Below are positions 2,438-26,315 of a stretch of 35,305 bases of DNA, piece by piece. The notes beneath the pieces were generated by a model. It was not told where the DNA came from. It did no database searches and was given only the letters and a program-made list of their open reading frames with translations. This DNA is from a virus, in the IMG/VR virus record IMGVR_UViG_3300027806_000096, positions 1-35,305 of that record; one strand, written 5' to 3'. The stretch's first letter is position 1. The number at the start of each line of letters is the position of its first letter. The position numbers and the translations under genes were made by a program.

Positions 2438-2481
2438 TGTATTGTCGTTTAGTCAATACAATAACCAACCAATGGTTGGTT
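2438..2481. repeat. Two adjacent short inverted repeats
   Basis: Positions 2438-2444 and 2454-2460 form a 7-bp stem with a 9-nt loop, and 2463-2470 with 2474-2481 form an 8-bp stem with a 3-nt centre. They fill the gap between the endolysin stop (2480-2482) and the acidic gene start (2437). Neither is GC-rich nor followed by a T-run, so they do not look like intrinsic terminators. They could be protein-binding operators, RNA-processing hairpins or 3'-end protection structures. Confidence 0.5.
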
Positions 2482-3082
2482 AAGTTCCCGTGGACGACAG
2501 CTCGGAGAGGTAGCGATGTGTTAGGATAACCCTTTCGTGTAGGCCCTTATGGCCTCCATTGACTTTCTTGGTGACCCTGGCGATGTCATCAAAGTCTGTG
2601 CCGGCATCTGCCAGGTTGTTGATCCGGTTCACATCCCAGAACCAAGCTGCTGAGAGCAGGGGGTACTTGGTCGCTACCAGGTCGGGGTTCGCTAAGATGT
2701 CTTCGTCTGTGAAGGCATCAAAGGCTTTGTAATTGCTTTTGAGCGTTAGTTGGATGTAACCCCTACCTCGGTGTCTCCAACCGTCTCCAGAGGCTTCTGA
2801 GCCATTCCCGCCCCTATTGGCGTAGACATAGTTGGCTAACGCTTCGGGGTTCTTGACATAAGGCTTAGGGTCCTTCCCTTTGAAGTACTTGGGGAAGGTC
2901 TTCAGGAGTGCTTTCTCGGAGTAGTTGAGGTTCTCCCGGACCAATCTAAAGCCACCCGATTCGTGGTGGCATTGTCCCAGGAAGTGAGCGAGTCGTTCGG
3001 CGGTTCTTATCCCGAACTTAGACATCACGGACCACAGCTCCTGCTTTACCTTGTCGGGTATTGACAGGTTGTCCAGGTTCAT
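2480..3082 (-). CDS. GH19 chitinase-like endolysin
   Basis: A 200-residue single-domain glycoside hydrolase family 19 protein, expected to cut the glycan strands of peptidoglycan at the end of infection. Visible family signatures are HHESGGF at 39-45 with the likely catalytic acid Glu41, a second acidic residue at about Glu50 (RENLNYS), the conserved RGRGYIQLT at 105-113 followed by Asn117-Tyr118, and the C-terminal VTKKVNGGHKGL substrate-groove segment. No signal peptide is seen, so export should depend on a holin or similar. The start couples by ATGA to the membrane coiled-coil gene (3079-3082). A second, unrelated endolysin (amidase) lies at 17.0 kb. Confidence 0.92.
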   Translation of the reverse strand: MNLDNLSIPDKVKQELWSVMSKFGIRTAERLAHFLGQCHHESGGFRLVRENLNYSEKALLKTFPKYFKGKDPKPYVKNPEALANYVYANRGGNGSEASGDGWRHRGRGYIQLTLKSNYKAFDAFTDEDILANPDLVATKYPLLSAAWFWDVNRINNLADAGTDFDDIARVTKKVNGGHKGLHERVILTHRYLSELSSTGT

Positions 3083-6107: not shown

Positions 6108-7193
6108 CTACCTTTTATTGACCAGTTTTTCGTACACACTGACTCTTTTTTCGTACACTTTTCGGTAGTCAAAGTCCCTCAGAACTGTTTCCTGTAAGTT
6201 TTTGGCAAGCTCATCACGCATATCCTTGTCGTTGATGAGCATCTTCGTGTACCGGTACCATGCGCCGGACTCCTTCTCCCCGACCAGTAACCCGTTGACA
6301 TTGTGCTTGATAACGTCTTCGTACTGCGGGATCTTGGAGCAAATCAGTGGCTTACCCATAATCCCTGCTTCAACGCATTTAAGCTCAGAGCGGTAATGGT
6401 TGAACTTGTCCGCTCTCAAGGGGGCGTAACAGACATCCACCTCGTTGTACCCAAAGGCGTACTCATAAACGCTCATAGCGTTGATCCTGGCGTAGTTCGC
6501 ATTCCGGTACCCGGCCGTGAAGACGTTCTCGTAAGCCTTGTAGGCTTCGTTGTCGTTCCATCCGGCACAAACCAAGAGGTACTTCCCGTTCAAGGACTTG
6601 TCCTTGTAGAGCGACTTCATGGACTCGGCCATCAAGTTCACGTCCGGAATGTGCTGCGCACCACCGAACCAACCGAACCTGACCTTCTCAGACTGCGTAG
6701 GATGCGCTACAAACGACTCCATCCCTTCGGGGTATGGAGTGTTAGCCACAACGGTTACATTGCTGTTGAGAGGCTCTATGCGCTCCTGGAGGTGTGTTGT
6801 CGTACAGAACACGTGATCGGCCAGGGAGATATTCAAAGCCAGCCGGTGGGGCAGCTTCTGGTCCTTGTAGTGCTGGTACATGTGGTGGTCCGATGGGAGC
6901 ACCCAGTAGTCATCGTAGTCCAGGACGATCTTGGCGCCATGCTTACGCAGGTAGTCAAAGACCTCACGGATTTTGTCATCCTCGTCAATGTGCAGGTTCC
7001 TCGAGATGAGGAACACATCCACGGTCTTGACGAGTTCGTCATCAATGTCCGGGATCTGTTTGAAGTTCGTCAGCAGGAACCGGTCCGCTTTCTCCTTTTG
7101 CAACCACAGGTTGGGCATCGCTAGCCGGTACAGGCTCGCTCCCGTCTCCTCCTGGTGGAATATCGTCCCCAGGTGTATCTTTCCGTCTTTCAT
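6108..7193 (-). CDS. Glycosyltransferase (GT4-like)
   Basis: 361 residues with a GT-B type layout. The N-terminal half has GASLYRLAMPNLWL and VLDYDDYW, the linker region IRFGWFGGAQH-like motif reads VRFGWFGGAQHIPD, and the nucleotide-sugar half has CVEAGIMGKPLICSKIPQYE, which carries the Glu-x7-Glu type motif of family 4 enzymes, followed by HNVNGLLVG. It probably transfers a sugar to a virion protein, phage DNA or a host surface glycan; the acceptor cannot be read from sequence. A paralogue lies at 25.2 kb. Its first 152 nt overlap the 3' end of the preceding gene in another frame; both glycosyltransferases align from the first residues, so this start is sound. Confidence 0.87.
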   Translation of the reverse strand: MKDGKIHLGTIFHQEETGASLYRLAMPNLWLQKEKADRFLLTNFKQIPDIDDELVKTVDVFLISRNLHIDEDDKIREVFDYLRKHGAKIVLDYDDYWVLPSDHHMYQHYKDQKLPHRLALNISLADHVFCTTTHLQERIEPLNSNVTVVANTPYPEGMESFVAHPTQSEKVRFGWFGGAQHIPDVNLMAESMKSLYKDKSLNGKYLLVCAGWNDNEAYKAYENVFTAGYRNANYARINAMSVYEYAFGYNEVDVCYAPLRADKFNHYRSELKCVEAGIMGKPLICSKIPQYEDVIKHNVNGLLVGEKESGAWYRYTKMLINDKDMRDELAKNLQETVLRDFDYRKVYEKRVSVYEKLVNKR

Positions 7194-7443
7194 GCTCGTC
7201 AGTCTCCACCAATAACTCCTTAAACTTCTTTTCGTTCGGAGCTAGTTCGGACCAACCTTCCAGCATGTACTTCTCTAGTTGTCGAATTGTGTTGTAGCGG
7301 GTCGAGTGTTTCCCCTGCTTCTCTTCCTTTTGGCCCTTCAGATAAGCCTTTAGGGCTTTATTCGTGGCCCGGCGTTCTTCCTTGTAGGCTTCATATTCCA
7401 TCCCTTCGGGACGCTTGTGGAGGATGTTAAAACTTGTCTGCAT
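7042..7443 (-). CDS. Conserved phage helical protein with low-complexity tail
   Basis: 133 residues from the ATG at 7443, which overlaps the primase-helicase stop by 17 nt. The N-terminal motif NILHKRPEGMEYEAYKEERR followed by NKALKAYLKGQ is familiar from small proteins of many Bacteroidetes phages, function unknown. Residues about 45-82 are charged and helical. The last 50 residues are Pro, Asp, Glu and Gly-rich and are encoded in DNA that also encodes the glycosyltransferase N-terminus in another frame. This tail could be overprinted on the older enzyme gene. A role in the replication module is suggested only by position. Confidence 0.65.
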   Translation of the reverse strand: MQTSFNILHKRPEGMEYEAYKEERRATNKALKAYLKGQKEEKQGKHSTRYNTIRQLEKYMLEGWSELAPNEKKFKELLVETDEHERRKDTPGDDIPPGGDGSEPVPASDAQPVVAKGESGPVPADELQTDPGH

Positions 7444-9292
7444 TGAGGTAGCGGTTTTTAAGTTTAATTTCAATAGATGCTGGGTCGATATGCGAGGAAG
7501 ACATCGATAGCGTGTTCGGGTCAAAGTTGTATACCACGTTCACGGTCTCTCCAGAATCCCTCTTGTCGAAGAGGCGAAGATAACCAACATCCGTCCGGTA
7601 AACGACGTCATCATTCGAGGTCCTCTCCGTGTCCACCACAAGGCTGCAGGAGATGAAGATGTCTGCATTGTCGTAAATCTTTCCGCTACCACGCAGGTAG
7701 GGAGTCAAGTCCCGAGTGTGCCTCGGGATGTTCTTCGTGACGTGGACCAAAGCAACGATCGGGATGTTCAGCTCGTTGGCGAGATACTTCAGCTCCCGGG
7801 TGTGCTTCTCCGCTGAATCCTTCTCCCCACCGCTGTCTGCCATCATGGACAACCCATCCACCACGAACATGTCTATCTTGCCATAGGCGTTCTCCACCTG
7901 CTCGACGATGGAGCGGTAGTGCGCCGCGTTGGACGCTAGCTTGTAGTCCACGATGATACGCTTGCTAAAGTCGTCCTTGAGCATCTCTTGGACCTTCTTG
8001 GTAGCTTCCTCCCGATCGGAGGAGTAGAGCTCCTTAAACTCGTCCCAGAGCTTCTTGTGGGCATAGCCATCACGGTACATGTTGATGCTTCGCTTGAGGA
8101 ACTGCGTACGAGACATCTCTTGGTTGTTGTAGATACCACGCATGCCGTTCCTTGCGTTGCGGAACATGATCTCTTGAGCGTAGAGCGACTTCTTAGTGCC
8201 ACCCTGCCCGGCAAGCACGATGAGCTTGCCCTTGAGGTCTCCCTTGATTAGGTCGTTGAACTCGTCAAATGCTAGGTCGTACGTACCGCTCTTCTCGTCC
8301 AGGGCGTTCAAGATGTCCGGAATCTGCTCATGCAGGGCGAACCAGGTCTTCACTCCATCACCGGCCTCTGCTTTCACTTGGGTACGCTGTTGGGCCGACC
8401 GAGTAATGTTGTAGAGCTCTTTGTAGTCTAGCGGGTTGGTACCCGCATCGTTGAGCCCAGAGAGTATCTGCATGATGTCGTAGAACTTGAACTGGCTCTT
8501 GTCAAAGAGCGCACAAGCTTGTTTGAATAGCTTGTTGTTCCTGTCGCCCTCCGTAGGGGGCGAAAAGAGACCTCCATCCTCCTTCTTCCGATCGGACCCC
8601 ACCTCATGGCTGTAATCGTCCGTGTAGCATGCATACTCCCACGTTTCAATGAGGCGCTTGTTGGGACGTGCCGGGTTGACCTCGGCACTGAATCGGAAGG
8701 TCGGGTTGGGAACTTCAGCGTAGAAGGAAATCTCCTCGATGTCCTGGGTCATGAAGTCTTCGTAGCGCAGGCCGCTCTTGTACAAGCCGCTATCCGGATG
8801 ACGGGAGTTGATGGCCCGAAAGGCTCTGTTGTTGTTGTAGATGCCATGGTCCACGCTGGTGATACCATCCGTAAGCGAAGCGACAAGGCGCTTCACTCGA
8901 GCTGGCAAGTCGGGAGATGGGGCAAACCCGCCAAACAAGGAGGAGTGGATTCCGATGTGGAAGCCTTTCTTCCCAGAGAAGCAGATGTAGACCTGGCTTG
9001 GGTCCACTAGGTACTCGGAGACGAGTTTCTTCACGAACTCCTTGGACGATTGGAAAGCCAAGGATACATCGGCATTGTCGATGTCCACCCAGAGGATGTT
9101 CATGTAGAACTCCCCTCTGTAGCCCTTTACGGAGCCGTTTACGGCAAAGTGATTCCGGATGGACTCTCCATACTGAAACAGGGAGGTATAGCGTTCATGG
9201 TCGCAAGACTCGTAACCGATGTCTTCGAGGTGAACAATCCGAGCGTTTTGATTGCGGCTCTGTATCGAGCCGTCGATAAGTTCTGTGTACAT
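7427..9292 (-). CDS. Primase-helicase fusion (AEP primase + RecA-like helicase)
   Basis: 621 residues with two recognisable halves. The N-terminal half looks like an archaeo-eukaryotic-type primase: metal-binding DID at 70-72 within LWVDIDN, the FSGKKGFHIGIH motif at 105-116, and the DHG motif at 148-150 followed by AFRAINSRH. The C-terminal half is a RecA/DnaB-type ATPase with Walker A GQGGTKKS at 362-369, Walker B IDMFVVDG at 473-480 and a downstream HVTK motif. Such a protein would make primers and unwind DNA at the phage fork. A TATCTTTG box sits 17 nt upstream. A second replicative helicase, of plain DnaB type, is encoded at 12.2 kb, which is unexpected in one phage. Confidence 0.87.
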   Translation of the reverse strand: MYTELIDGSIQSRNQNARIVHLEDIGYESCDHERYTSLFQYGESIRNHFAVNGSVKGYRGEFYMNILWVDIDNADVSLAFQSSKEFVKKLVSEYLVDPSQVYICFSGKKGFHIGIHSSLFGGFAPSPDLPARVKRLVASLTDGITSVDHGIYNNNRAFRAINSRHPDSGLYKSGLRYEDFMTQDIEEISFYAEVPNPTFRFSAEVNPARPNKRLIETWEYACYTDDYSHEVGSDRKKEDGGLFSPPTEGDRNNKLFKQACALFDKSQFKFYDIMQILSGLNDAGTNPLDYKELYNITRSAQQRTQVKAEAGDGVKTWFALHEQIPDILNALDEKSGTYDLAFDEFNDLIKGDLKGKLIVLAGQGGTKKSLYAQEIMFRNARNGMRGIYNNQEMSRTQFLKRSINMYRDGYAHKKLWDEFKELYSSDREEATKKVQEMLKDDFSKRIIVDYKLASNAAHYRSIVEQVENAYGKIDMFVVDGLSMMADSGGEKDSAEKHTRELKYLANELNIPIVALVHVTKNIPRHTRDLTPYLRGSGKIYDNADIFISCSLVVDTERTSNDDVVYRTDVGYLRLFDKRDSGETVNVVYNFDPNTLSMSSSHIDPASIEIKLKNRYLNADKF

Positions 9293-9318: not shown

Positions 9319-10209
9319 TCAGTACATCCGTGTGCAGGCTGTGAAATCCGAAACTACTTTGATTTCGTCCAGGCTGTCCTTCCTCCCGCGTAAACGAACG
9401 AGTTCAAGCTGCAGCCAGTAACCGCCCAATGGCTTTGGGCCACGACCCCTCTCCACGTGGAATCCTCCAACGCCGCCATCCCATTCCTCCTTGTAGGTGG
9501 CAGTTCTTATCTGATCGATGTGTCTTTGTGAAATTTTTCTGTTATGAGGATCGTAGCGATGAACGATGTTGATGTGGTGATACAACTCATGCACGTGGCC
9601 CTGCCAGGTGCAGTTGTAGCCTTCCACTGAAGCCATGATACGCTGGTCTTGAATGACGCCCTTGGTGACCACGCCTCCGCCTCCGGAACCGTGGAAGTAG
9701 TGAATTACGTATTGACGGCCTTTGTTTTTGCCAACCGGTGGGTCCATAAGCACGGAGAAGATTCCGCCGTATCCGCCTACTTGGATGTTGGTGCCGTTCT
9801 GGTAGTTCATCACATCCGCAAAGCGTCGCAGGATGTCGGTCTCTTGGTGCTTGAGTACGCCGGTCTCATGGTTTCCATAACCTAGCAAGACCAAGTGGTT
9901 TGCGTATGGCTTGAACCATTCCACCGCTGTCTCGATGATGGAGTCCAGGTAACGGCCGTTGTTGTGCTCAGGGCGGATGTCGTCCTTACTCCTACGAGGA
10001 TCGCCTTTCCCTTGCATAAGGCAAAAGAAGTCTCCGTTCACTACGATGGCTGCATTCCTGCGGACTGCTTCGTCTAGGTGGTTCTTGAGGAGGTCCCGGT
10101 CGCAATGCGGGTTGTCCCAGTGCAGGTCCGATAGGAGTAGGAACAACTGCTTAGGACCGACTTTTGAAACGTGGACGTTTGGTCCAAATCTTTCGAGGTT
10201 AATGATCAT
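9319..10209 (-). CDS. Calcineurin-like metallophosphoesterase (copy 1)
   Basis: 296 residues carrying the full set of two-metal phosphoesterase motifs: SDLHWD (27-32), NGDFF (58-62), YGNHE (111-115), the histidine in IHYFHG (170-173) and GHVH (204-207). Family members hydrolyse phosphodiesters or phosphomonoesters; in phages they are found near replication genes, but the substrate here is unknown. The ATG at 10209 is preceded by the C-rich leader typical of this part of the window. A close paralogue at 17454-18338 is collinear over nearly the whole length, with long shared stretches such as NGDFFCLMQGKGDPRRSK. The final residues (SDFTACTRMY) differ from the copy. Confidence 0.9.
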   Translation of the reverse strand: MIINLERFGPNVHVSKVGPKQLFLLLSDLHWDNPHCDRDLLKNHLDEAVRRNAAIVVNGDFFCLMQGKGDPRRSKDDIRPEHNNGRYLDSIIETAVEWFKPYANHLVLLGYGNHETGVLKHQETDILRRFADVMNYQNGTNIQVGGYGGIFSVLMDPPVGKNKGRQYVIHYFHGSGGGGVVTKGVIQDQRIMASVEGYNCTWQGHVHELYHHINIVHRYDPHNRKISQRHIDQIRTATYKEEWDGGVGGFHVERGRGPKPLGGYWLQLELVRLRGRKDSLDEIKVVSDFTACTRMY

Positions 10210-11150: not shown

Positions 11151-11173
11151 GGGTTAGGGGTTAGGGGTTGGGG
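11151..11173 (+). repeat. G-quadruplex-type motif upstream of small gene
   Basis: The plus strand has four G-runs (3, 4, 4 and 4 Gs) with loops TTA, TTA and TT, directly abutting the ATG of the minus-strand 11150 gene. It fits the canonical intramolecular quadruplex pattern. The same segment on the minus strand is the C-rich leader of that gene. Confidence 0.6.
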
Positions 11174-11178
11174 TGATA

Positions 11179-11361: not shown

Positions 11362-11430
11362 TTTTCGTTTATGGTTTAGGGGTTGGGGGTTGGGGGTTGG
11401 ACAAATATGCGAGTTATAAGCAATAAAAAA

Positions 11431-11860: not shown

Positions 11861-12190
11861 CTACCCACATTCAGCCAACACCCGTTGGAATTCTTCCACG
11901 GAGCGAATGACCTCGTACCTGTACCCCGCCTCCTGAACCACCCCCTGCCACCACTTTTGGGATAGGGACTGCTTGCCCTTGGATGTTTTAAATTCCAAGA
12001 ACACCGCTCCCTTGGGTGATAGGTAGGTCATGTCGGCAACCCCAGCGGTCAGCCCGATGCCTTTGAGGAAGAAACCGTTGGAGCGGGAGCGGGGGTTGTT
12101 GAGGTTCAAAAATAGCAAACCCTGCTCGTTGGGTCGGAGTATTGCGAACAACTTGACGCAGGCGGCTTGGAGGTTGTATTCTTCCATCAT
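11861..12190 (-). CDS. VRR-NUC domain nuclease
   Basis: 109 residues from the ATG at 12190, chosen because it overlaps the helicase stop as ATGA. The PD-(D/E)xK-type VRR-NUC signature is clear: GLTAGVADMTYL with Asp53, FLEFKTSKGKQS with Glu66 and Lys68, and Gln74, followed by QKWWQGVVQEAGYRYEVIRS. Such single-domain nucleases in phages cut branched or flap DNA during recombination and replication. It sits at the end of the initiator-helicase transcript, fitting a role in processing replication intermediates. Confidence 0.87.
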   Translation of the reverse strand: MMEEYNLQAACVKLFAILRPNEQGLLFLNLNNPRSRSNGFFLKGIGLTAGVADMTYLSPKGAVFLEFKTSKGKQSLSQKWWQGVVQEAGYRYEVIRSVEEFQRVLAECG

Positions 12191-13467
12191 AGCGAATTGG
12201 GTGGGTATTCGTTGGCTTTGGTATAGGGAAGGTGACATTGGATGTTTGCGATGCCAAGGGAACCGTTGCGGTTCTTGCGGAAGATGACCTCCATCAAGTC
12301 GGCTGGCTGGTTCCTGTCGTGTTCGTAGGGACGATACACAAAGCCAATCTTGTCAGCATCAAACTCCAGTTGGCCCGTTTCCCGAAGGTCGGACATGATG
12401 GGGCGATGGTCGCTGCGTCCTTCCGTTGCACGGGATAGGGATGACACCACCACCCCGAACACCTTCTGCCGTTTGCAGATTGCTTTGAGGGTCTTGGATA
12501 TGTTGGTCATCTGCTCAATTTTGGGCTTGGCCTTGTCAATCTTGGTCGGCTCAACGAGTTGCAGGTAGTCCAAGTAGAATCCGCAAATCCCATACTTGGT
12601 TTTGAGTTTGGCGATTTCGCCTTCGATGCGGTCCAAGTTCGCTTGGTGTAAGTCCACGATGTAGAGCGGTTTGGATTTTAGGAGGTCCGCTTTTTGGCCA
12701 AGGTCCATGAAATCTTTTGTGCTGATTCGCTCGGTCGGGTTTAAAAAGTGCGCCCCGTCCATGGTGGCGAGGTTGGAAAGCATCCGCTGGGTGAGTTGCT
12801 CCGCTGACATTTCAAGCGTGAAGAAGACCACGGGAATATCGGCCATGGCTTGATTCATTGCTATTTGCAGGGCCAAGAGGGTTTTGCCCATTGCGGGACG
12901 ACCGCCAAGGAGGATGAACTCCGTGGGCTTGAACCCCGTCATCATTCGGTCCATCGGGCTGATGTAGGTCGGGAAAATAGAATCCTTGCGTCTTCCTTCA
13001 CGGACCTCGTTCATGTTCATGAGGTAGGTCTTGGCGAGTTCGTGGGCCGTGGTTTCGGTGGCGTTGGTTTCAATGGCTTGCATGGACTGATAACGGGCGA
13101 AGGCTTTGGGGATGTCCCTGTCATGGGCCAACTCGTCCATAATCCTTTGTTCCTCCCTTTGCTTCCATGCTTCGTTGAGGTCCGAGGCATAGACCTTCCA
13201 ATCAGAGGTCAGCGTGTTGCCGTCCAAGATGTCCACAAATTCAGCGATGACATGGGCTTGACCGTTGTCAATGAGGTGCTTGTGAACGGCTACCAGGTCC
13301 ACGGGTCGCTCTGCTCGGTGGAGGTATTCAATAGCCCTGTAAACGAGGACATGGTTTCCCGTGAATAGGCGTTCGGGGATTTGCAGAAGGAGGACCGCTC
13401 GGTTGGTAAACTGGTCCATGAGGCAGGACAGGAGCCGCCGTTCAGCGGTAAGATGGTAAGGGTTCAT
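12187..13467 (-). CDS. dnaB: Replicative DNA helicase, DnaB-like
   Basis: 426 residues with the two-domain DnaB layout. The N-terminal helical domain starts MNPYHLTAERRLLSCLMDQF and is joined by a linker (about 100-150) to a RecA-like motor with Walker A GGRPAMGKT (188-196), a FFTLEMSAEQL motif (215-225), Walker B ICGFYLDYLQL (294-304), and the SDLRETGQLEFDAD segment (359-372). It should form a hexamer that unwinds DNA at phage forks. It follows the initiator gene with a 26-nt overlap and is coupled to the VRR-NUC gene. It is unrelated in architecture to the primase-helicase at 7.4 kb, and no DnaG-type primase is seen nearby. Confidence 0.93.
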   Translation of the reverse strand: MNPYHLTAERRLLSCLMDQFTNRAVLLLQIPERLFTGNHVLVYRAIEYLHRAERPVDLVAVHKHLIDNGQAHVIAEFVDILDGNTLTSDWKVYASDLNEAWKQREEQRIMDELAHDRDIPKAFARYQSMQAIETNATETTAHELAKTYLMNMNEVREGRRKDSIFPTYISPMDRMMTGFKPTEFILLGGRPAMGKTLLALQIAMNQAMADIPVVFFTLEMSAEQLTQRMLSNLATMDGAHFLNPTERISTKDFMDLGQKADLLKSKPLYIVDLHQANLDRIEGEIAKLKTKYGICGFYLDYLQLVEPTKIDKAKPKIEQMTNISKTLKAICKRQKVFGVVVSSLSRATEGRSDHRPIMSDLRETGQLEFDADKIGFVYRPYEHDRNQPADLMEVIFRKNRNGSLGIANIQCHLPYTKANEYPPNSL

Positions 13468-14146
13468 CGTCGGTTTGGTTTAGTGGGTTGAAGGTAGCGT
13501 TCCTTGGGATTACTTGGTCCTCCCAGCGGCCTTGGTTTAGGTAGGTGGCTGCGTGGGGGACGAACTGCACGGGGGTTTCGGAGTAGAGGCGGGCGATGTT
13601 GTTGATAGCCTTCTGCTGGTCTTCATCCTTCAACTTGGCGAAGGCTTTGGATGCGGACTGCTTGGAGGTCTTGCGGGGGTAGAGGGCCCAAAATTGGTCA
13701 AACAGGACACAAGTATTTTCTCCTCTCTTCTTCTCTTCTCTTCTCTCCTCTTCTCTATTGAACACAGGTTCAACCTTAGTTGAAGGTAGGTTCAACATAG
13801 GTTCAACCTTAGTTGGACTTTCTTCAACCTTTGCTGACCTCCTTTCGGCACTCCGCTTCCCCGCTTGGGACATCTTGGTCCGATGCAGGTTGGCTTCCTC
13901 CCATTGGATGTCAAGGAACTTGATGAAGACCGACGGCCCGTTGGATTCTACCAATCGGGTTTGGAGTAACCGTTCAAGATGCCCATCGGCTTCCAGTTCG
14001 GCGTGTTCGGTTGACATCTCGCATTCTGCGTTCCAATAGACGCAACACAATCGGATGAAGGCCACCTGCACCTCGGCGGGTTGGCGGGATATTCGGCCCA
14101 TCATCCAATCGGCTGGGCAGAACTTGAACCATGATATTTGCTTCAT
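13442..14146 (-). CDS. Replication initiation protein (O-like)
   Basis: 234 residues. The N-terminal 90 residues (ISWFKFCPADWMMGRISRQP ... VAFIRLCCVYWNAECEM) match the winged-helix replisome-organiser type found in phage initiators. A charged linker at about 105-145 contains the repeated peptide TKVEP and an Arg/Glu-rich tract. The C-terminal part (FDQFWALYPRKTSKQSASKA, PHAATYLNQGRWED) is the domain shared by many phage O-like proteins. It probably binds the origin and loads the DnaB-like helicase encoded next. The DNA of the linker carries iteron-like repeats. The ATG lies 4 nt after the T-run of a strong terminator, so expression may depend on antitermination. Confidence 0.82.
   Translation of the reverse strand: MKQISWFKFCPADWMMGRISRQPAEVQVAFIRLCCVYWNAECEMSTEHAELEADGHLERLLQTRLVESNGPSVFIKFLDIQWEEANLHRTKMSQAGKRSAERRSAKVEESPTKVEPMLNLPSTKVEPVFNREEERREEKKRGENTCVLFDQFWALYPRKTSKQSASKAFAKLKDEDQQKAINNIARLYSETPVQFVPHAATYLNQGRWEDQVIPRNATFNPLNQTDDEPLPSYR
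13716..13830. repeat. Candidate replication origin: iteron-like repeats and pyrimidine tract in the initiator gene
   Basis: The core TTCAACCT (one copy TTCAACAT) starts at 13769, 13791, 13802 and 13823, spacings 22, 11 and 21, so close to whole helical turns. Two copies belong to a 17-nt exact repeat (13766-13782 and 13799-13815), and 13769-13784 is an inverted repeat. Immediately beside it, 13716-13756 is 41 nt of unbroken pyrimidines on the plus strand. Phage lambda has its origin iterons inside the O gene in the same way. Confidence 0.55.
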
Positions 14147-14280: not shown

Positions 14281-14526
14281 CTAAAACGGCATATCTCCAG
14301 CCTGTGGTTCAAATGCGTTGGCGGGACGGGATTCGTTCATCGGCTCGACTTTGCCACTCAAGAACTTTCTCTCGCCGTTTCTTGATTCTCGAATCCATGC
14401 GGACAGGCGCATCTTGGTCCCGTCGGGCAGGACGACTTCGCCCCTGTAATCGGGACGCTTCGGGTTGTCACCTTTGTCGTTGGCGAACAGGGTGAAGGTG
14501 TTGGGTTGGGGGGTGTAATCGCTCAT
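14281..14526 (-). CDS. SSB-like small protein
   Basis: 81 residues. The core (NTFTLFANDKGDNPKRPDYR, GEVVLPDGTKMRLSAWIRES, GERKFLSGKVEP) has the strand pattern of small OB-like or DUF736-like phage proteins. The protein ends in a flexible Pro/Ala-rich stretch and the tip GDMPF, which resembles the acidic Asp-Pro-Phe tip with which single-stranded-DNA-binding proteins contact partners. It lies between winged-helix genes and the replication initiator and is coupled by ATGA (14523-14526) to the gene before it. A role in coating or handling single-stranded DNA is inferred. Confidence 0.6.
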   Translation of the reverse strand: MSDYTPQPNTFTLFANDKGDNPKRPDYRGEVVLPDGTKMRLSAWIRESRNGERKFLSGKVEPMNESRPANAFEPQAGDMPF

Positions 14527-14750
14527 GGGTTTTGGGTTGGGGTTTGGTTAGGTTGAATTGAGTATTTGCAGTTTTCCAGTACGAGCCAATTTGAGGCCCG
14601 TAAATCGCTTAGGATTCGGTAGGTGGTACGAAGGTTCACCCCAAGCACTTCGGCGAGTTCTGTGGCCCTGTATGGGCGTTGTGCGAGGTATGACACGGCG
14701 TAGATGGTGGCCACTCTTCGTTGGATTTCTTTTCCTTTGGGTTTGGGCAT
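14523..14750 (-). CDS. Small winged-helix protein (tandem copy 1)
   Basis: 75 residues from the ATG at 14750 (MPKPKGKEIQRRVATIYAV); upstream in-frame codons overlap the partner gene and are unlikely. The body reads LAQRPYRATELAEVLGVNLR followed by TTYRILSDLRASNWLVLENC: a helix-turn-helix with recognition helix around RTTYRILSDL and a short beta wing. It resembles IclR/MarR-type DNA-binding domains without an effector domain. The neighbouring gene is a paralogue. Probably a regulator of early or replication genes. Confidence 0.7.
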   Translation of the reverse strand: MPKPKGKEIQRRVATIYAVSYLAQRPYRATELAEVLGVNLRTTYRILSDLRASNWLVLENCKYSIQPNQTPTQNP

Positions 14751-17031: not shown

Positions 17032-17457
17032 ATGCGCCAAATAACCCACCTCGTCGTGCATTGCACGGCTACGCCGAAGAACACCACCATCGCCAGCATC
17101 CGCAAACATTGGAAGGAGGGGCTTGGCTGGAAGGCGGTGGGGTATCACAAGATTGTAGAACCCAACGGGAACATCATGACCTTGGCTACCGACGACAAAG
17201 TCACCAACGGGGTTGCTGGACACAACGCCACGAGCCTGCATGTGTCCTACATTGGCGGGAAGGACACGGATGACCGAACCATCCAGCAGAGGCAAGCCAT
17301 CGCAGGGGTGCTTCTTTCTTGGTTGCAGAAGTACCCCAAGGCCCGCATTTGTGGCCATCGGGACTTCCCAGGGGTGACCAAGGCTTGCCCGCAGTTTAAT
17401 GCTGAAAAAGAATACGGTTACCTTTACTTGACCGCCTCCGATACGCAGGAGGGTTAG
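17032..17457 (+). CDS. N-acetylmuramoyl-L-alanine amidase endolysin
   Basis: 141 residues, the size of T7-lysozyme-like amidases. Visible zinc ligands are His10 in VVHCTAT, His109 in ICGHRDFPG and Cys119 in TKACPQFN; Tyr38 in VGYHKIVEPNG fits the catalytic tyrosine. It cuts the bond between muramic acid and the stem peptide. No signal peptide or cell-wall-binding domain is seen. It is on the plus strand, opposite to all other lysis and structural genes, and overlaps the stop of the metallophosphoesterase by 4 nt tail-to-tail. Together with the GH19 enzyme at 2.5 kb the window encodes two chemically different endolysins. Confidence 0.93.
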   Translation: MRQITHLVVHCTATPKNTTIASIRKHWKEGLGWKAVGYHKIVEPNGNIMTLATDDKVTNGVAGHNATSLHVSYIGGKDTDDRTIQQRQAIAGVLLSWLQKYPKARICGHRDFPGVTKACPQFNAEKEYGYLYLTASDTQEG

Positions 17458-18338
17458 TACAACCTATCCGCAGGGGTGAAGGTGGCGTGCAGTTGCAACT
17501 CTGGTCCCTTGTTGTCCTTGCTACTATTCCGTGATGTTTCCAACTTCATCCAATATCCGCCAAGAGGCTTCGGGCCTCGTCCTCGTTCAGTGTGAAATCC
17601 CATATAACCGCCGTCCCATTCTTCTTTGTAAGTAGCCGTACGAAGTTGGTGAATAGGTTTTTGAAGAAGTGTTTTGGTCGAGCGGTCATATCGGTGAATC
17701 ATGTTTTGGTGGTAGTACAATTCGTGGACATGGCCCATCCAAGTCAAGTCGTAGCCTTCGGTGGATGCGAGTAACCGTTGGTCGGCAATTACTCCACGGG
17801 TGACCACCCCACCCCCTGCGCTCCCATGAAAATAATGCACTACAAAGTTGACCCCACGGATTGCATCGTGCAGCACTCGGATGTCAATCGTGCCGCCGTA
17901 GCCACCGACCTCAACTGCTGACCCCGTGGCGTAGTTCAGCGTGCTTGCGAAGCGTTGCAGTATGTCGGTTTCTTGGTGGTGGATGATGGAGGTTTCGTGG
18001 TTGCCATATCCAACAAGCAGCAGGTTCTTGGCGTAGGGGGCAAACCATTCCACGGCGGTGTTGACGATGGAATCCAAATAGCGGGCGTTGTTGTGTTCTT
18101 CACGGATATCTTCCTTGCTCCGTCGTGGGTCGCCCTTGCCCTGCATCAAACAAAAAAAGTCACCATTAACGATGACTCCTGCGTTGCGCCGTTGGGCTTC
18201 CTTTAGGTGGTTGGTCAGCAGCCCCCTATCGCAATGGGGGTTATCCCAATGCAGGTCGCTGATTAGAAGAAACTCCTGCCCGCTTTGGCAGGTGACTTCG
18301 TGGATGTTTCGGGTGTGCTTAGTGGTTGGCAGAATCAT
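17454..18338 (-). CDS. Calcineurin-like metallophosphoesterase (copy 2)
   Basis: 294 residues with the same motif set as the copy at 9.3 kb: SDLHWDNPHCDRG, NGDFFCLMQGKGDPRRSK, VGYGNHETS, VHYFHGSAGG, MGHVHELYYH. All metal ligands are present, so both copies should be active. Substrate unknown. Its start overlaps the membrane coiled-coil gene by ATGA (18335-18338), tying it to the lysis/tail transcript, whereas copy 1 lies beside the primase-helicase. The two copies are in the same orientation and flank the replication module, a possible recombination arrangement. Confidence 0.9.
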   Translation of the reverse strand: MILPTTKHTRNIHEVTCQSGQEFLLISDLHWDNPHCDRGLLTNHLKEAQRRNAGVIVNGDFFCLMQGKGDPRRSKEDIREEHNNARYLDSIVNTAVEWFAPYAKNLLLVGYGNHETSIIHHQETDILQRFASTLNYATGSAVEVGGYGGTIDIRVLHDAIRGVNFVVHYFHGSAGGGVVTRGVIADQRLLASTEGYDLTWMGHVHELYYHQNMIHRYDRSTKTLLQKPIHQLRTATYKEEWDGGYMGFHTERGRGPKPLGGYWMKLETSRNSSKDNKGPELQLHATFTPADRLY

Positions 18339-25156: not shown

Positions 25157-26233
25157 TCACAATTTGCGCCCGATGCTTCGGTAGAGTTCGGCCCTCCGCT
25201 CGGCGGTCTTGCTGATGTCAAAGCGTTCCCGTACATCCTTGGACAACTGCACGGCCAAGGAGCGAGCGTAGTCGGGTTCGTTCACAAACTTCCTGACGGC
25301 CTTGTACCATGCGTCTTTTTTCCCGTAGGGGATGAGCAGACCGTTGTGGCCGTGGACAATTATGTCGGTGTAGGGGATGGTTTCCGAGGCGATGATAGCC
25401 TTGCCCATCCAGCCTGCTTCCACAACCTTCAGTTCGCTTTTGAGGCGGTTGAACTTGGTATCACGGAGGGGTGCGATGGTGGCGTTGATGAAGTTGTAAC
25501 CCCCGACATAGGAGTAGATGTCAGCGGCTTGGATGCGGCCGTAGTTCTTATTCAGGCCACGGCAGGATAGCATCCGTTCGTAGTCGTCATACACGGCGTT
25601 CCCATCGTTCCACCCGCCAAGGTAAATCTTGTATCGGCCATCAAGGGAACGGTCATGGGCAAGCAGTCCAAAGGAATGTTCCACCAAGGCGATGTCCTCT
25701 TGGTGTTGCGCCCCGCCAAACCAGCCAATCTTGAACAAGTGCGGTTCGGGTTCGGCATTCGTGTCGGGCAAGTATTGCTGATATGCTTCGTAGGGTTCGT
25801 TCGGGAGGATGGTGACGGCCTTGTTGAGCAGGCGAATCTTTTGGGCAAGGTGTTCGGTCGTGGTGGTCACATGGTCGGCCAAGCGGATGTGTTCACGGAT
25901 TTGCTCGTCCAACTTGGTGGACAAATAGTGCCGATACATGATATGTCCGCTCTCCAGCACCCAGTAGTCGTCGAGGTCCAGTATCACCTTCGCCCCAAAC
26001 GCCGTGAGAGCCTCGTAGACCTTCCGAATTTGCTCCAGCGTACCTTGACACCAAAGACGATTGAAAAGCCACACATCGACCGTCTTTAGGTCCTCGTCTT
26101 TCACATTGGCGATATTATCGACACACACATAATCGAACTCGGTGTAGTTGTCGCCAAGATATGCGTTTGGCATCTCCAAGCGATAGAACGAGCAGCCCGT
26201 CGGGTGGGCGTTGTAAACGATGCAAATTCTCAT
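25157..26233 (-). CDS. Glycosyltransferase (GT4-like, copy 2)
   Basis: 358 residues from the ATG at 26233 (MRICIVYNAHPTGCSFYRLE); the frame is open further upstream through a terminator, which rules out the longer start. It is collinear with the enzyme at 6.1 kb: VILDLDDYWVLESGH, KIGWFGGAQHQEDIAL, and VVEAGWMGKAIIASETIPYT followed by VHGHNGLLIP. The Glu-x7-Glu type motif of family 4 is present. It lies inside the head/tail gene block, between the tail tube gene and virion proteins, so glycosylation of capsid or tail proteins is a reasonable inference. A TACCTTTG box sits 3 nt before the ATG. Confidence 0.87.
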   Translation of the reverse strand: MRICIVYNAHPTGCSFYRLEMPNAYLGDNYTEFDYVCVDNIANVKDEDLKTVDVWLFNRLWCQGTLEQIRKVYEALTAFGAKVILDLDDYWVLESGHIMYRHYLSTKLDEQIREHIRLADHVTTTTEHLAQKIRLLNKAVTILPNEPYEAYQQYLPDTNAEPEPHLFKIGWFGGAQHQEDIALVEHSFGLLAHDRSLDGRYKIYLGGWNDGNAVYDDYERMLSCRGLNKNYGRIQAADIYSYVGGYNFINATIAPLRDTKFNRLKSELKVVEAGWMGKAIIASETIPYTDIIVHGHNGLLIPYGKKDAWYKAVRKFVNEPDYARSLAVQLSKDVRERFDISKTAERRAELYRSIGRKL

Positions 26234-26236
26234 GCC

Positions 26237-26244
26237 CAAAGGTA
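26237..26244 (-). promoter_or_regulatory. Putative -7 promoter element at glycosyltransferase 2 start
   Basis: The minus strand reads TACCTTTG, 3 nt before the ATG at 26233 and directly after the T-run of a terminator. A transcript from here would be leaderless. Confidence 0.45.
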
Positions 26245-26245
26245 C

Positions 26246-26277
26246 AAAAAAAAGGGCCACCCCTTGCGAGATGGCCC
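26246..26277 (-). terminator. Strong intrinsic terminator before glycosyltransferase 2
   Basis: On the minus strand a 10-bp stem (GGGCCATCTC with GGGGTGGCCC, two G-U pairs) closes a GCAA tetraloop of the stable GNRA class and is followed by eight Ts. It isolates the capsid/tail-tube transcript from the glycosyltransferase gene. Confidence 0.85.
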
Positions 26278-26315
26278 AGACCACTAAACCATTGCGGGGT
26301 ATGAGGCCCGCAGGT

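Follow-up and report, generated by a model that had tools for sequence, protein, structure and literature searches.

The initiator gene and its surroundings

The window (the whole stretch of DNA that was analysed) is a virus record of 35,305 nt, classed as linear and possibly a fragment. Its replication genes, and the features inside one of them that concern us here, are the following:

12187–13467, − strand: DnaB-like replicative helicase gene (PF03796, E 1.3e-59; PF00772, E 2.9e-9)
13442–14146, − strand: initiator gene, 234 amino acids (phrog_9327, E 3.5e-21, residues 1–214; phrog_270, E 2.8e-19, residues 106–214)
13442–13708, − strand: DNA for the C-terminal helical domain of the initiator (residues 147 to end; conserved F..FW..YP motif, helices at 147–204), proposed to handle the helicase
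13716–13756, no strand assigned: 41-nt run of pyrimidines on the + strand (purines on the coding strand), the longest purine/pyrimidine run of the window and a proposed unwinding element
13758–13830, no strand assigned: tiled repeat array with TTSAA cores at 13758, 13769, 13780, 13791, 13802 and 13823 and a degenerate TTGGA at 13813
13835–14146, − strand: DNA for the N-terminal domain (residues 1–104), winged-helix-like in an AlphaFold2 model and proposed to bind the array; its type agrees with the repeat type in 107 of 107 proteins
14281–14526, − strand: SSB-like gene, upstream of the initiator gene (phrog_18154, E 3.8e-7)

The two PHROG profiles that the initiator matches, and to which it can be assigned, are those of phage "primosomal" and "replication initiation" proteins. 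A profile search at E 0.01 gave no Pfam family match for it, neither to the λ O family (which we take to be Phage_rep_O) nor to any other, and no RepA_N profile match. The helicase gene overlaps the 3' end of the initiator gene by 26 nt. Beside this helicase the window encodes a second DnaB_C-containing protein (7427–9292), which also has PriCT_1 and primase-like parts. No named phage has DNA similarity to the window, and none of 49 candidate stretches from the genome collection was confirmed as encoding a relative of the initiator protein.

Several other features of the window were recorded. Two G-run repeats, TTAGGGGTTAGGGGTTGGGG at 11151–11174 and a near copy at 11376–11400, lie 222 nt apart on either side of a 60-amino-acid open reading frame; their sequences suggest a capacity for G-quadruplex formation, and they are conceivable rivals as origin repeats. 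At 9319–10209 and 17454–18338, 7 kb apart, lie genes for two proteins of about 295 amino acids that resemble each other; they have the stretches LLSDLHWDNPHCDR and KGDPRRSK in common, and neither has a Pfam match. There are two glycosyltransferase-like genes, 6108–7193 and 25157–26284 (Glycos_transf_1 / Glyco_trans_1_4), and two genes for cell-wall enzymes, a GH19 chitinase-like gene (2480–3082, − strand) and an Amidase_2 gene (17032–17457) which is on the + strand, unlike most other genes of the window.

The array and the pyrimidine run both lie in the DNA for the linker of the initiator protein, which is predicted to be disordered. An earlier note on this DNA had described four TTCAAC(C/A)T cores, at 13769, 13791, 13802 and 13823, spaced by 22, 11 and 21 on nearly the same helical face; all four are present on the + strand, and the regularity is stronger than was claimed, in that the six TTSAA cores and the degenerate one follow each other at steps of 11, 11, 11, 11, 11 and 10 nt, or one core per helical turn. 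The exact 17-nt repeat it reported (AGGTTCAACCTTAGTTG, at 13766–13782 and 13799–13815), an inverted repeat (coding strand TTCAACTAAGGTTGAA), the adjoining tract of 41 pure pyrimidines and two copies of the peptide TKVEP in the linker are likewise there. The best 11-bp units of the array are AGGTTCAACCT, at 13766–13776 and 13799–13809. Low coding constraint in the linker, which the same note had assumed, stands only as far as the predicted disorder goes, since the relatives do not show low amino-acid identity in this part (0.84–0.87). GC skew, a check that it had suggested, did not point to the array: the cumulative minimum of the whole window is near 7.5–8.5 kb, a point against the array as origin, but weak evidence because the replication genes are all on one strand and the record is linear and possibly a fragment.

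The motif TTCAACMT occurs seven times in the window, four of them at the array, against an average of 2.99 in whole-window shuffles. When the codons were redrawn with the peptide fixed and the codon usage of the window, the observed direct-repeat score was reached in 0 of 5000 redraws for 7-mers, 0 of 5000 for 8-mers and 1 of 5000 for 9-mers; inverted repeats alone were significant in the same redraw at k = 6 (0.0044) and showed no significance at k = 7, 8 or 9. A scan of the window in 3-nt steps, with 78-nt windows and with purine tract and array counted together, gave a top 25 that all start at 13678–13768. The next longest purine/pyrimidine run is 19 nt, less than half the length of the one beside the array. 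The least stable 40-mer of the initiator gene is 13714–13754, with just 2.3% of window positions having lower stability; the duplex of the purine tract is weakened no more than moderately (z 2.07–2.22), which counts against the interpretation as a replication origin put forward below.

Constraint and exchange of the linker DNA among relatives

Relatives were taken from the best 80 of 123 confirmed IMG/VR loci (51–100% identity), and in further searches from the best 80 of 135 and the best 80 of 95 confirmed loci. Searching with the C-terminal domain and with clade B brought in linkers of three types, named after inspection: type A consists of AGGTTSAACCT tiles, type B of 21-nt units around GCAAGTGCTAAGCAA in 2–4 copies, and type C of CTAACC-like boxes at 11-nt steps. 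Steps between neighbouring cores in types A and C are all near whole helical turns (10, 11, 21, 22, 32 or 33 nt in A; 10, 11 or 22 nt in C). In every type the repeats are followed by a tract that is rich in purines (0.69–0.79, against 0.48–0.50 elsewhere in the gene) and in A+T (0.59–0.68, against 0.49–0.50). The full type A unit is rare outside the initiator gene, with 2 occurrences in 296,211 nt of A loci. A helicase gene adjoins the initiator gene in 45/45 A, 34/34 B and 26/27 C loci, the remaining C locus ending too early.

The linker DNA of clade A is strongly conserved at synonymous positions. Among 48 distinct genes (duplicates and the partial genes L022, L058 and L076 were left out), synonymous differences in the linker and purine tract are 0.066, where these amino acids in the rest of the gene lead one to expect 0.315; none of 20,000 column shuffles was as low. 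The lowest 38-codon window of the adjacent helicase gene in 44 clade-A phages is 0.311, compared with 0.060 for the initiator linker of the same phages, and third codon positions that are conserved to at least 97% number 26 of 38 in the linker and 46 of 196 elsewhere. Relatives that kept the peptide and lost the DNA repeats had been named in the earlier note as evidence that would speak against an origin; here the DNA repeats are kept at synonymous sites, and where related clades have other repeats, the whole set has changed along with the N-terminal domain.

The other clades give a less uniform picture. The synonymous value in clade B (19 genes) is 0.022 against 0.122 expected, with 1 of 20,000 shuffles as low, but the first 30 codons of this set are as quiet as the array, which counts against an origin; with 34 genes the array is clearly quiet (0.017–0.056, against 0.105–0.346 in most of the remaining gene). 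In clade C (26 genes, L248 left out) it is the AT/purine tract that stands out, with synonymous values of 0.008–0.019. The clade C array itself (0.046–0.062) is no quieter at these sites than the N-terminal part (0.052–0.120), a further point against.

We compared 107 distinct proteins (46 A, 34 B and 27 C; L249, of which there is only a C-terminal piece, was dropped). Because repeat type coincides with N-terminal cluster (60% identity) in 107/107 of them, while C-terminal clusters (75% identity) mix all three types, the array is, as judged by these sequences, inherited with the N-terminal domain. Individual pairs are nearly identical at one end and highly diverged at the other: L012 and L069 (types A and B) have identities of 0.99 in the C-terminal and 0.37 in the N-terminal part, L056 and L173 (A and C) 0.95 and 0.20, and L219 and L248 (B and C) 0.93 and 0.23, and the window gene and L061 have DNA identities of 0.919 in the C-terminal and 0.569 in the N-terminal part. 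We count at least four such N/C swaps, in each of which the break lies C-terminal to the linker, statistics that are weak when taken alone. Part of the joint inheritance of array and N-terminal domain is accounted for by their adjacency; the linker has the C-terminal domain as its other neighbour, yet that domain does not follow the repeat type.

Predicted domains and likeness to known initiators

In the AlphaFold2 model the N-terminal domain has three helices, a two-strand wing and a long helix (block pLDDT 73–86, residues 21–90), and residues 103–145 have a pLDDT below 50. The C-terminal domain is common to proteins with different repeat types, at up to 0.99 identity. Matches of the N-terminal domain to solved structures are weak: the DnaD N-terminal domain 2vn2 (Z 4.2, rmsd 3.1, 71 residues aligned) and the plasmid initiator 4pt7 (Z 4.2, rmsd 3.7, 76 aligned) appear among other winged helices, unrelated ones tying with the latter, so that these fold matches of a model are suggestive only. 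Foldseek gave a DnaD model as its best match (E 1.1) and nothing at E 0.001, and a sequence search of solved structures gave seven weak matches (E 0.1 or more) with no initiator among them. The structure model for type C was too poor for use (pTM 0.29).

The arrangement resembles that of the λ O gene. According to published work, the λ origin is placed centrally within O, where λ has four iterons and Stx phages have six (PMC7466680), a tract beside the λ origin has almost all of its purines on one strand (PMC5043065), and the iterons are bound by the amino-terminal half of λ O (PMC4488673). In λ O as in our gene, repeats in the middle of the initiator gene are followed by an AT-rich, strand-asymmetric purine tract, an arrangement also found in Stx phage O; the copy number of the repeats varies between relatives in both groups, as far as the same sources describe it (PMC7466680, PMC5043065, PMC4488673); and the repeats are read by the amino-terminal half of the protein, a role known for λ O and proposed here. 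With λ O as a control, the same repeat script placed its best repeat window over the annotated iterons, and the least stable 40-mer of λ O starts at locus position 522, iteron 4 ending at 519. Unlike λ O, our protein has no λ O profile match, its gene has 11-bp tiles rather than 18–19-bp iterons 20–24 bp apart, and it lies next to the phage's own DnaB helicase gene rather than a P-type loader gene. The designation "lambda-type" in the earlier note is thus apt for a way of working and fails as a statement of membership.

A second parallel is with RepA_N plasmids. PMC5703833 describes pSK41 Rep as having a winged-helix N-terminal domain, a central linker encoded by the origin and a helical C-terminal domain, and pPR9 as a natural exchange of N-terminal domain and origin in one block, with C-terminal domains more than 97% identical. 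The initiator of the window similarly appears to have a winged-helix-like N-terminal domain, a linker over the putative origin and a helical C-terminal domain, and its relatives, like pPR9 in that account, exchange N-terminal domain and array as a block (N-terminal identity 0.36–0.37) against a conserved C-terminal domain (up to 0.99). It differs in having no RepA_N profile match, in belonging to a phage and not a plasmid, and in a structural match of only Z 4.2. The best reading by analogy is that it may work like λ O or pSK41 Rep as an unrelated initiator family, which the tests above assign to neither group.

The C-terminal family is also represented in named phages, such as Arthrobacter phages LittleTokyo and Abidatro and Pseudomonas phage psageK9, which likewise have linker repeats at 11- or 22-bp steps and in several frames; they differ from the window in their repeat sequences and are less than 60% identical to its protein. 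In LittleTokyo, GGGGTGC recurs at steps of 22, 22 and 22 through three frames. In 11 of 14 named-phage relatives (L305, whose annotated gene is short, was left out) no more than one codon shuffle in 200 matched the best repeat window, the failures being Azospirillum Cd (6/200), Asapag (11/200) and MT837034 (69/200). Clear helical spacing (11, 20 or 22 bp) is found in only 6 of the 14 (LittleTokyo, psageK9, Abidatro, phi19:1, GRNRAP2 and MT835537), and in Moorella, NrS-2 and PfAn1 the best-scoring repeats are simple 6-nt ones, which weakens any general claim. In PfAn1 and psageK9 the gene lies just before a replication-P or helicase-loader gene. Annotations of the named-phage relatives read HTH, replication initiation, hypothetical or antirepressor protein, and none marks an origin in the regions examined. 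Relatives in Pseudomonas phages (L294, L303, records MR13 and MR15) are annotated as hypothetical or "putative antirepressor", and in the two regions examined they precede a helicase loader or ATP-binding protein gene. A mycobacteriophage study also suspects an origin within or next to repA (PMC7157519).

The N-terminal domain of type C is DUF6291 (PF19808, E 3.2e-17), and because type C carries it we propose from these sequences that DUF6291 may be an origin-recognition module. A Riemerella phage with a 45%-identical domain has AACCTAA at steps of 22, 11 and 22. Among 73 DUF6291 loci, nine were too short and were dropped, and one more that contained N was dropped from the shuffle test; in the linkers of the remaining 63 genes, from genome contigs, AACCTAA occurs 33 times against a codon-shuffle mean of 13.5 (0 of 200 shuffles as high), ACCTAA 40 times against 20.3 and AACCAAA 72 times against 35.1, the last two also exceeding all 200 shuffles, as does ACCAAA. 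ACCGAA and AAACCT showed no excess over all 200 shuffles in these genes, and only 8 of 64 loci have ACCTAA at least twice in the linker, which weakens the general claim. DUF6291 genes of Bacteroidota, Clostridia and other genomes (L307–L379) have repeated KPNDNQTITE-like linkers, followed by AT-rich stretches of the NVNDNVNVN kind.

A candidate origin and its alternatives

We consider it highly probable that 13716–13830 is a replication origin, located in the linker of its own initiator gene and bound by the initiator. The alternative that the array is an operator, or a site for some other protein (repressor, partition or packaging) that happens to lie in the gene, is unlikely. Nearby genes encode two small proteins that resemble winged helices (weak Pfam matches), the dyad units would suit a dimeric repressor, and the origin role of the array is itself read from sequence; however, a change of repeats goes with, and is not independent of, a change of the protein's own N-terminal domain, the purine/AT tract next to them is both conserved and the least stable part of the gene, and the same anatomy is found in λ O. 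Repressor sites are moreover expected near promoters, yet no core heptamer lies within 600 nt upstream in 37 of the 40 A loci that extend far enough, a result by which autoregulation through upstream array sites was also rejected; the window's core site at 14550 looks accidental.

It is very improbable that the repeats arose through slippage or as a side effect of a repetitive linker peptide and have no function as DNA. TKVEP is repeated in a disordered linker, and type B, with its 21-nt units, copy number of 2–4 and mostly one frame (one frame only in 19/34 genes, which counts against an origin), could be read this way. Codon redraws that keep the peptide do not give the repeats, however, third codon positions are conserved, and the cores fall in all three reading frames in 44/46 A and 26/27 C genes and therefore cannot be explained by selected peptide repeats; the sequences thus largely refute it. 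Slightly less probable still is an overlapping gene or a structured RNA as the cause of the synonymous constraint: two + strand open reading frames overlap the region in the window, and the RNA folds somewhat better than its shuffles in the window (z −2.44) and in L032 (z −3.73), but z is +0.20 in L057 and +1.70 to −1.32 in six B and C representatives, folding thus not being common to the types, Rfam matches are all below gathering scores, and stops interrupt the linker in the three antisense frames in 48, 28 and 48 of 48 genes and in the sense +1 and +2 frames in 47 and 48 of 48. Peptide repeat, overlapping gene and RNA structure were each set aside on these tests of codon redraws, frames, stops and folding z.

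If 13716–13830 is an origin, the N-terminal winged-helix domain would bind the 11-bp tiles and, because the core recurs once per helical turn, several copies of the initiator would be arranged along the same side of the helix. The resulting strain may open the neighbouring purine-asymmetric stretch, and the disordered linker would leave the C-terminal domain free to deliver the DnaB helicase that the phage itself encodes in the adjacent gene.

New here are the protein family, a tiling in 11-bp units, an exchange of domain and array that has recurred in nature, and the proposed role of DUF6291; a literature search with most subscription journals outside its scope, and so weak as evidence of novelty, found nothing on origins or iterons in this protein family and no paper mentioning DUF6291. 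A wider proposition, which in our judgement could go either way, is that throughout a phage primosomal superfamily, in which one C-terminal helicase-handling domain is joined to N-terminal domains of many unrelated kinds, the linker DNA generally serves as the origin. The domain that binds DNA and its helically phased array would then form an exchangeable cassette of key and lock, repeatedly swapped before the conserved C-terminal domain, and DUF6291 would be a key of this sort, its AACC(T/A)AA boxes occurring both in phages and in bacterial genomes of several phyla. DUF6291 would thereby gain a testable function, and the odd repeated linkers of such proteins would be explained, the peptide being incidental to the reading of an origin in three frames. 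The natural domain swaps amount to an experiment that nature has run several times. Origins of uncultured phages are rarely located, and here an array, an unwinding tract, a reading domain and a helicase could all be proposed without culture of the phage, from its sequence; if the wider proposition is true, the origins and compatibility types of uncultured phages would be readable in the same way.
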